NCBI GenBank assembly: GCA_023957235.1
Contig: JAMLHI010000004.1
Coordinates: forward strand, 325,422 to 389,421
Direction of reading: 5' to 3'
Origin: Chitinophagales bacterium
GTDB taxonomy: Bacteria; Bacteroidota; Bacteroidia; Chitinophagales; JADIYW01
DNA length: 64,000 bases
Made by a program: the position numbers and the translations under genes. Shown in pieces: positions 61,304 to 64,000 of this stretch (positions within the stretch are counted from its first letter, which is position 1; every line of letters starts with the position of its first letter). The notes beneath the pieces were generated by a model. It was not told where the DNA came from, searched no databases, and saw only the letters and a program-made list of their open reading frames with translations.

Positions 61304-61323
61304 TTACAATGCATACATTGTAA
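61304..61323 (+). promoter_or_regulatory. 20-bp palindromic operator upstream of PF10118 copy A
   Basis: TTACAATG-CATA-CATTGTAA, perfect 8-4-8 inverted repeat, ending 39 nt before the ATG. A TTTG at 61290-61293 stands 20 nt before TACATTGT (61314-61321), so the palindrome covers the putative -7 element. A 17/20 identical sequence lies at the same relative place before copy B. Confidence 0.65.
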
Positions 61324-61362
61324 GCTAAGAATTGCTATTTTTAATATAAGTAAAAGGTCAAA

Positions 61363-62226
61363 ATGAATGCTTTTAAGAGTAATATAAAAGTTAGAAATGT
61401 AAAGTTTGAATTTAGTGATGTACCGAAGCATTGGATTTTAAACAATCCTTTTGCTACTCATTTTGTCAATAGTATGCATGTTGTATTCCCAGAGGGGGAA
61501 AAGTTTTTTGTCCGCAGTGTTAAGAGATTTGAAAAGGAAGTTAAAGATCAACAATTAAAAAGTGATATTAAAGGATTTTGTGGACAAGAAGGAATACATG
61601 CTCGTGAACATCAAAGGTTTTGGGATGTAATGAATGAGCAAGGATTGAATCCAGAAAAATTTGCTCGCTTTTTGAATACCTATATGTTTAAGAAAAAGTA
61701 TAGTGTTGAAGGATTAATTGTCAATAGCCTTAATCAAATTGCTCCTCGACTTGGAGATAAAATGGCATTGTCTATTACGACAGGATTAGAACATTATACA
61801 GCAATTATAGCAAAAGCAGTTTTTGAAGAACCTATTTTATCAAATAAAAATATTGCCCCTCAGTTATTAGAACTGTTGCACTGGCATGCTTGTGAAGAAA
61901 TTGAACATAAAGCTGTATGTTTTGATGTGTTAAAAGAAATTGATGATGATTATATATTAAGGGTGACTGGAATGTTGATTGCATCTTTATTATTGTTTGG
62001 AAATCTAGGTATTGGAACAGCATATTTTCTTTGGAATGATAAAGACTTAAATAGAGATAAGCTAAAGGGACAAGCCTCAGAATTCAAAAACTCTATTCTT
62101 CTTAATAAAATAGGAAGAGGTTTTACAGAAAATTTGAAAAAATACTTTGATAGAAATTTTCATCCTAATGATATAGATGAAACTGAAATTGTTAGAAGAT
62201 TTTTTTCAGATAAATCTTATGCATAA
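61363..62226 (+). CDS. PF10118 'metal-dependent hydrolase' family protein, copy A
   Basis: 287 aa, cytoplasmic start then one hydrophobic segment (about 205-222, LIASLLLFGNLGIGTAYFLW). Family core: VRNVKFEFSDVPKHWILNNP, FCGQEGIHAREHQRFWDVMN, GLEHYTAIIAKAVFEE and WHACEEIEHKAVCFDVLKEI, then FDRNFHPND. The spaced ExxH pairs (QEGIH, EEIEH) with an intervening GLEH look like a carboxylate-bridged di-iron site in a helix bundle; the family name hydrolase is a database label without tested activity as far as I know. First of three tandem paralogues. Confidence 0.85.
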   Translation: MNAFKSNIKVRNVKFEFSDVPKHWILNNPFATHFVNSMHVVFPEGEKFFVRSVKRFEKEVKDQQLKSDIKGFCGQEGIHAREHQRFWDVMNEQGLNPEKFARFLNTYMFKKKYSVEGLIVNSLNQIAPRLGDKMALSITTGLEHYTAIIAKAVFEEPILSNKNIAPQLLELLHWHACEEIEHKAVCFDVLKEIDDDYILRVTGMLIASLLLFGNLGIGTAYFLWNDKDLNRDKLKGQASEFKNSILLNKIGRGFTENLKKYFDRNFHPNDIDETEIVRRFFSDKSYA

Positions 62227-62239
62227 TAGAAATTGAATC

Positions 62240-62257
62240 ATCATTATTAATAATGAT
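62240..62257 (+). repeat. 18-bp perfect palindrome between copies A and B
   Basis: ATCATTATT/AATAATGAT, 13 nt past the stop of copy A and 16 nt before the copy B operator. No T-run follows, so it is more likely a protein-binding or structural site than a terminator. Confidence 0.4.
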
Positions 62258-62273
62258 TTATATAAACTTAATA

Positions 62274-62293
62274 TTGCAATGCATGCATAGTAA
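62274..62293 (+). promoter_or_regulatory. 20-bp operator upstream of PF10118 copy B
   Basis: TTGCAATGCATGCATAGTAA, 17 of 20 positions identical to the copy A operator and ending 42 nt before the ATG. The central part ATGCATGCAT is itself palindromic. TAATATTG at 62269-62276 overlaps as a one-mismatch -7 box. Confidence 0.6.
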
Positions 62294-62335
62294 ATAAATA
62301 ATAAGTAAATTTAGATTAAACTAAACTATTTAAAT

Positions 62336-63241
62336 ATGGCAACGTCAACAAAAAAAGCAACCACAAACGCTTCTGTTGGTCAAAACGAAAAGGAGACTAA
62401 AAAGTATGACCATGAAGAAGTGAAAGTGAGAAGAGTGAATTTTTCTTTTGATAAAGAAACTCCTCGTTTTTACTACAAAAACAATCCATTTAGCACGCAT
62501 TTTATTAATACTCTTCATATTCTTTTTCCTACTGGAGAACGTTTTTTTGTAAATGCAACATTAAAACATCAGAAAGCTATAAAAGATGAAAAGTTGAAAA
62601 AGCAAGTCAGGAATTTTTGTGGTCAAGAAGGCATTCATTCATCAATGCATGAAAGATTTTGGAATATATTGAAGAGTGGAGGTTATAATTTTCAGGGATA
62701 TGAAGATCATATAGACTTTTTATTACATAAAATTGTTACTAAGATTGAAATAGAAGGTACTAAGATTAATAATATCGACTTGGTGGCTACTGTGTGCTTA
62801 GAGCATTTTACCGCTTTATTTGGTCATGCCATCTTCCAGCATATTGATGTGACACCAGAAGCCGCTCCAGAAGATATAGCTGAGTTGTTCCAATGGCATG
62901 CTGCTGAAGAAATTGAGCATAAGCATGTTGCTTTTGATGTTCTTAATCTTGTTGATAAAGATGCATATATTAAGAAAATTGCACTAATGCCTATTGTGAC
63001 TGCTGTTTTATATTTCTATTTGGGCATTGGTACAACTATTTTAATGTATCAAGATAGAAAAAGATTAGAGTTGACTAAGTTACCTAAGCAGTTCTATGAA
63101 TTTGCAACTGGCCTATTTACAGAATTACATGGTGATATGGTGAGCGATTTCTTTAAATTCTTCAAACGTGATTTTCACCCTTCTGATGTGAATGATTATT
63201 ATTTGGCTGAAGAATTTTTTAAAGATAAAGCATACGCATAA
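62336..63241 (+). CDS. PF10118 'metal-dependent hydrolase' family protein, copy B
   Basis: 301 aa with an extra 35-residue polar, lysine-rich N-terminus (ATSTKKATTNASVGQNEKET) not present in copies A and C. Core motifs match: FCGQEGIHSSMHERFWNILK, CLEHFTALFGHAIF and WHAAEEIEHKHVAFDVLNLV, hydrophobic segment MPIVTAVLYFYLGIGTTILM, FKRDFHPSDV. It is the most divergent of the three (lacks the RLGDKM segment before the GLEH-equivalent). A large terminator hairpin follows its stop. Confidence 0.85.
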   Translation: MATSTKKATTNASVGQNEKETKKYDHEEVKVRRVNFSFDKETPRFYYKNNPFSTHFINTLHILFPTGERFFVNATLKHQKAIKDEKLKKQVRNFCGQEGIHSSMHERFWNILKSGGYNFQGYEDHIDFLLHKIVTKIEIEGTKINNIDLVATVCLEHFTALFGHAIFQHIDVTPEAAPEDIAELFQWHAAEEIEHKHVAFDVLNLVDKDAYIKKIALMPIVTAVLYFYLGIGTTILMYQDRKRLELTKLPKQFYEFATGLFTELHGDMVSDFFKFFKRDFHPSDVNDYYLAEEFFKDKAYA

Positions 63242-63270
63242 TAGTTTTTTAAATAAATATTTAAGCAATG

Positions 63271-63329
63271 TAGCTAAGTAGAGAAATGATATTAAAATTA
63301 ATATTTTTCTTGACTTAGCTATTTTTTTT
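63271..63329 (+). terminator. Large hairpin terminator after copy B
   Basis: Imperfect 16-bp stem (63271-63286 TAGCTAAGTAGAGAAA with 63306-63321) and a 19-nt AT-rich loop, followed by eight T. It separates copy B from copy C; the copy C ATG is only 20 nt beyond. Confidence 0.7.
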
Positions 63330-63348
63330 GCACTTTAAACCTATTCTC

Positions 63349-64000
63349 ATGAAAAACAATAATGAAATAAAAGTTAGGAATATTACCTTTTCGTTTGATA
63401 AGGTTCCTAAACATTGGGTATTGGATAATCCTATTATGACTCATTTTTCCAATAGTATGCATATTGTTTTTCCGAGTGGAGAAAAGTTTTTTATTCGAAG
63501 TGTTAGAAAATTTGCTAAAGAGATAAAAGATAATAAGCTATCAAAAGATATTAAAGGATTTTGTGGTCAGGAAGGAATCCATTCAAGAGAGCATGAACGT
63601 TTTTGGGATATCATGGAAGACCAAGGTCTGAATCCTGGTAGGTTTGAAAAATTTCTCAATAAAGTGGCTTTTTCAGGAAAGTTGAGTATGGAAAATGTTC
63701 TGGTGAAAGGCCTCAATAAGTTATCACCTAGATTAGGAGATAAAATGTCTCTTTCTGTGACAGCTGGATTAGAACATTATACAGCAATTTTGGCCAATGC
63801 ATTATTTAATGAGCCTTTTTCTATTAATGATAAAATTGCTCCACAGATGTTGGAATTGATGTTTTGGCATGCGTCAGAAGAGATTGAGCATAAAGCGGTG
63901 TGTTTTGATGTATTAAGAGAAGTAGATGATAGTTATATTTTGAGAATATCTGGTTATAGTATAGCGTCTGTAGTACTATGGTTGTTTTTGGGTGTAGGAC
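63349..64000 (+). CDS. PF10118 family protein, copy C (cut by right edge)
   Basis: At least 217 codons, open to the window end. The N-terminus MKNNNEIKVRNITFSFDKVP is very like copy A, with HWVLDNPIMTHFSNSMHIVF, FCGQEGIHSREHERFWDIME, LGDKMSLSVTAGLEHYTAIL and WHASEEIEHKAVCFDVLREV. The hydrophobic segment has just begun (GYSIASVVLWLFLGVG) when the window ends. Copies A and C share RLGDKM..S.T.GLEHYTAI and are clearly closer to each other than to B. The -33/-7 signal before it is weak. Confidence 0.9.
   Translation, partial: MKNNNEIKVRNITFSFDKVPKHWVLDNPIMTHFSNSMHIVFPSGEKFFIRSVRKFAKEIKDNKLSKDIKGFCGQEGIHSREHERFWDIMEDQGLNPGRFEKFLNKVAFSGKLSMENVLVKGLNKLSPRLGDKMSLSVTAGLEHYTAILANALFNEPFSINDKIAPQMLELMFWHASEEIEHKAVCFDVLREVDDSYILRISGYSIASVVLWLFLGVG

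Follow-up and report, generated by a model that had tools for sequence, protein, structure and literature searches.

What controls the tandem PF10118 genes of a Chitinophagales bacterium, and what do their products do? The window (the whole stretch of DNA analysed here, 64,000 nucleotides from a genome of 3.0 Mb) carries three such genes head to tail at its right end, two of which are preceded by versions of one palindrome. The features of this region are the following:

61304..61323, no strand assigned: operator-like palindrome TTACAATGCATACATTGTAA before copy A (equivalent in sister species G001: ATACAATGCATACATTGTAA, at -53)
61363..62226, forward strand: PF10118 copy A, 287 aa, a predicted diiron ferritin-like oxidase/oxygenase
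62274..62293, no strand assigned: second operator-like site, TTGCAATGCATGCATAGTAA, before copy B, 17/20 (equivalent in G001: TTACTATGCATGCATTGTAA, at -56)
62336..63241, forward strand: PF10118 copy B, 301 aa, of a separate old subfamily, 37% identical to A
63270..63330, forward strand: long hairpin followed by a T run, terminator-like (-23.3 kcal/mol, z -5.0)
63349..64000, forward strand: PF10118 copy C, cut by the end of the window (in the contig the gene ends at about 64209), no operator

The tandem triplet described in the first-pass annotation is clearly real, as all three head-to-tail genes score far above the curated PF10118 cut-off of 33.2 bits (258, 228 and 220 bits for A, B and C, with E-values of 1e-76, 1.4e-67 and 6.5e-65, respectively). 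Copies A and B cover the full profile, copy C is matched over its in-window part, and the three are the sole PF10118 genes of the genome. The term "amplified family" applied to them is apt in that they are paralogues, but A and B, being only 37% identical, are old paralogues travelling together.

The site before copy A has the structure TTACAATG-CATA-CATTGTAA, with perfect 8+8 arms around the CATA centre; as this centre is not self-complementary, the site matches its own reverse strand with 2 mismatches. The site before copy B differs from it at 3 positions, and the gaps between the end of the site and the ATG are 39 nt (copy A) and 42 nt (copy B), in agreement with the 17/20 repeat about 40 nt before the ATG that had been noticed initially. 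Four matches were found in the window against a chance expectation of 0.04, and this number was reached by none of the dinucleotide shuffles. No site was found upstream of copy C, for which the lack of a clear site had also been recorded. The putative -7 box that the site of copy A was said to cover is a tentative assignment, as sigma-70 scans give no useful signal here and the fit to the Bacteroidota -7/-33 pattern was assessed by eye.

To see how far this arrangement extends, we read up to 260 bases upstream of all PF10118 genes detected in 13 family genomes. Eight PF10118 genes, distributed over the genome studied here (G000), G001, G002 and G005, carry the site. In seven of these, counting A and B of G000, the site begins at -52 to -62 relative to the ATG; in the A1 copy of G002, whose start is apparently disrupted, the distance to the first in-frame ATG is greater (-152). 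Sister species G001 has the site before both A and B, sister species G002 before two A-type copies, and G005, which belongs to a different genus, before each of two unlinked PF10118 copies. A frameshift disrupts the second A-type copy of G002 (C5:80471-81281), a genome that has no B-type copy. The comparison of PF10118 promoters thus finds the site kept in sister species G001 and G002 as well as in a second genus, and the persistence of an operator-like element before each of A and B in relatives agrees with the early suggestion that the two are controlled separately. None of the PF10118 genes read in G003 and genus g3 has the site, nor does copy C in any of the three genomes of genus g1. Since the g3 pairs are without it although g3 uses the palindrome elsewhere, regulon membership of PF10118 genes is not universal.

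In a maximum-likelihood tree, copy B falls in a clade of its own with G005_C77 and the second copies of g3 (100/100), and A and C fall in another clade; the G005 branches are long, and their exact placement is unsure. With A and B belonging to different old subfamilies, and with sites at unlinked places, the shared site is not the relic of a recent duplication. Sequence comparison therefore supports the palindrome as a real, conserved operator-like element before A and B.

The same element recurs throughout the genome. Searching it for CAATGYAWRCATTG with at most one mismatch returned 18 forward and 14 reverse matches, where the reversed control gave 0 and 3. Roughly half of the near-matches lie inside genes, so that single weak sites are not to be trusted alone. 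Besides copies A and B, the genes with an intergenic, promoter-proximal site encode two flavin monooxygenases of FMO-like type, an acyl-CoA dehydrogenase (followed by another of its kind), a CoA-transferase of family III, a cholesterol-oxidase-like protein (2.6e-155 to the model, under the model's cut-off), a 2Fe-2S ferredoxin (adjoining a 4HBT thioesterase) and a secreted T9SS esterase of the BD-FAE type (with another esterase following), the functions of several of these genes being assigned by reading their sequences. Of the best 27 loci of a family-wide search, we read about 22 as promoter sites and 5 as lying within genes. Five of these promoter loci are PF10118 genes, and most of the others belong to thiolases/FadI, FadE-type ACADs, FadH/BaiCD-like OYE flavoenzymes (which have a nitrilase-like neighbour), a KshA-like Rieske oxygenase and a ferredoxin. 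Outside the family, in f12 and f22, an exact CAATGCATGCATTG precedes genes that read as FadE-like in G460, G037 and G039, and in G039 also one that reads as FadJ-like.

A shared operator-like site is thus found before several lipid-oxidation genes and is conserved across species, the pattern looked for in a lipid regulon. Given the functional coherence of the genes that it precedes, the palindrome (core CAATGCAWRCATTG) most likely serves a lipid-oxidation regulon as its operator, and copies A and B probably belong to a lipid-breakdown programme. The search through this genome and its relatives recovered the sites of A and B and also placed the palindrome before lipid-oxidation genes, so that it is not private to the tandem. 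The notion of a "dedicated" operator and regulator has to be abandoned, as the same palindrome precedes genes dispersed over the genome.

PF10118 bears the family label Metal_hydrol, "predicted metal-dependent hydrolase". An alignment of 24 PF10118 sequences reveals eight invariant residues (E46, E76, H79, E143, E178, E179, E181 and H182), a set that fits the E...ExxH...E...ExxH pattern of carboxylate-bridged diiron proteins; E46, E76/H79, E143 and E179/H182 map to four predicted helices (29-54, 63-92, 130-155 and 166-181) or to their edges. The AF2 model of the protein (pLDDT 88, pTM 0.88) has as its best VIA structural matches CmlI (Z 14.1 over 241 residues, 4.7 A), AurF (13.2) and R2lox (12.7), values to be read knowing that helical bundles easily reach about 13. 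Ribonucleotide reductase R2 and methane monooxygenase follow, and nearly all of the top 50 rows are dimetal enzymes. Foldseek puts the same families on top with weak E-values (best 0.01). The diiron N-oxygenases CmlI and AurF and R2lox share the E/ExxH/E/ExxH ligand pattern with PF10118 and may resemble it in fold, as predicted by the model, but identity is about 8-15% and no homology was detected at the sequence level; a search of PDB sequences with the PF10118 profile likewise returned no solved relative, and a full-text literature search for PF10118, COG3687 or Metal_hydrol found only a passing mention. From the ligand set, the predicted fold and the regulon together, PF10118 proteins most likely function as diiron oxidases or oxygenases of a lipid-derived substrate. 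While these genes do match the profile, the modelled fold and the invariant residues point to a ferritin-like diiron oxidase/oxygenase as the most likely identity of PF10118, for which the hydrolase label is probably a misnomer. An uncharacterised family labelled as hydrolases would thereby gain a concrete alternative, that of a diiron oxidase in lipid oxidation.

We put at about two in three the probability of the following model. A dimeric transcription factor would bind the CAATGCAWRCATTG-core site, its predicted binding site, at dispersed genes of fatty-acid/sterol-type oxidation; copies A and B, encoding PF10118 diiron enzymes, would be two separately controlled targets of that factor; and copy C would be left outside. 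We infer that the factor acts as a repressor released by an acyl-CoA-type ligand. The substrate of the PF10118 proteins would be a lipid or derive from one, and its oxidation would precede beta-oxidation. The reality and conservation of the site are the best supported part of this model, followed by the lipid-oxidation regulon, the diiron-like nature of PF10118 and, last, the assignment of the regulator to the MarR family.

The position of copy C is clarified by the terminator-like hairpin between B and C. Sister species G001 has a hairpin of different sequence but equal strength in the same place (z -6.8), and this conservation, together with the T run, suggests that C is probably a transcription unit separate from B. 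Having no site and being cut off from B readthrough by the hairpin, copy C would escape control through the palindrome.

Whether the palindrome acts as DNA at all could be questioned, as its arms can pair into an 8-bp hairpin (-6.8 kcal/mol, z -2.5) that might function as a short 5' UTR hairpin, with no DNA operator involved. We regard this as extremely improbable: the sequence itself, beyond its pairing, is conserved at unlinked genes, sites located between divergent genes serve both orientations, and the second copy (site B) folds in its context no better than shuffles (z -0.1). Only marginally better placed is the model of the first-pass annotation, a TetR-like repressor dedicated to A and B. 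The only sites in the window are indeed those before A and B, and one TetR gene (on C16) lies in the same intergenic region as a site, the one before the ferredoxin gene. However, at least seven other functionally coherent genes of this genome are preceded by the palindrome, the gene after the C16 TetR reads as a large transporter of the RND type (1050 aa), with its partner next to it, and the G002 orthologue of this TetR has no site. The C16 gene was rejected as a candidate because of this company of RND-type transport genes, despite the intergenic region that it has in common with a site. The TetR gene looked for just to the right of the window fared no better: the nearest one (C12:394860) lies 5.4 kb from the tandem, beside efflux genes and without a site, and was discarded as a dedicated regulator.

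A TetR protein of the PKQKV type (C11:83751 in this genome) was our first choice as the reader of the palindrome, in the role of a fatty-acid regulator. It is found in 13/13 family genomes and in 7/7 genomes of the order with an exact palindrome (45/79 overall), and three g3 genomes have a perfect palindrome about 100-120 nt upstream of its gene. Nearly every readable orthologue, including those three, nevertheless has ACCAAACnnnCGTTTGGT, a palindrome of other sequence, about 50-85 nt upstream, whereas the CAATG palindrome is found there in only 3/13 family genomes and genus g1 has no CAATG site at this gene. The candidate was dropped once this ACCAAAC box of its own appeared. As ACCAAACnnnCGTTTGGT is the autoregulatory box to be expected of such a protein, the PKQKV-type TetR probably reads something else and is probably at most a target of the palindrome regulon; that it reads the palindrome seems unlikely, though less so than the two proposals above. 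The TetR-like regulator first envisaged is probably not the reader of the palindrome, and a MarR protein fits better.

The lipid-oxidation regulon that we favour has its best candidate regulator in a MarR protein (PF01047) encoded near the palindrome-bearing fadE in six genomes of g3, a sister genus. In five of the six, a 12-13/14 match to the palindrome lies at -68/-69 from the start of the MarR gene (1/3000 random AT-rich 200-nt sequences reached 12/14); the sixth has no site there. Two of the five matches, that of G011 and, judging from its near-identical sequence, that of G012, lie over the start of a divergent gene, and coding constraint may contribute to them. No MarR gene was found in the stretches of G000 that were read. 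We infer that the factor is this MarR protein. Two genes lie between fadE and the MarR gene at some of these loci (L217, L220, L213), coding for 212 and 283-285 aa and read as a nucleotidyltransferase/abortive-infection-type pair, which some g3 genomes have and others lack (L238, L239).

Beta-oxidation regulons of the FadR, PsrA and FadP type are built in a similar way, with a single palindromic operator recurring at beta-oxidation and lipid genes. Their regulators belong to the GntR or TetR families, come from other phyla and use other operators, whereas the best candidate here is a MarR protein in Bacteroidota. FabT, a MarR-family fatty-acid regulator of streptococci, controls synthesis and not oxidation; compared by description, it resembles the present case in being a MarR protein found at lipid genes with a short palindrome, but its operator differs. 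In mycobacteria, a large regulon for lipid and cholesterol degradation is placed under one operator, that of KstR (PMC1995591). KstR is a TetR regulator from another phylum, and sterol use is here only suggested by the cholesterol-oxidase-like and KshA-like genes. A full-text literature search on a fatty-acid regulon in Bacteroidota yielded nothing relevant; no described regulon having been found there, the palindrome and the MarR gene provide a testable candidate operator and regulator for fatty-acid catabolism in this phylum.

The distribution of PF10118 adds a historical dimension. The family is present in 13/13 genomes of this Chitinophagales family, in 0/47 genomes from other families of the order and in no other genome among 395 sampled across Bacteroidota, and it occurs elsewhere (as in the Caulobacter control). 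Confinement to one family among the sampled genomes of the phylum suggests lateral acquisition, which is the simplest reading. More tentatively, and at somewhat less than even odds, PF10118 could be an uncharacterised family of diiron oxygenases in lipid/sterol breakdown that was acquired from outside, diversified and was wired into an undescribed MarR-controlled beta-oxidation regulon with the operator CAATGCATGCATTG.

Other upstream elements were encountered along the way. The ACCAAACnnnCGTTTGGT box is nearly invariant about 50-85 nt upstream of the G000 gene at C11:83751 (L140) and its orthologues (L141-L203) across many Chitinophagales families, which suggests that it marks a second, separate TetR regulon, yet to be mapped. 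A PF10118 gene of G004 (C13:931617) has no CAATG site; upstream of it lies a palindrome of another kind, GGTCGGTGTGTACACCGACC, which may be the site of another regulator. Lastly, a stretch resembling AATTATCTATTGTTTA recurs before the first PF10118 gene of the g3 pairs (e.g. L021, L018 and L015), genes that are without the palindrome.
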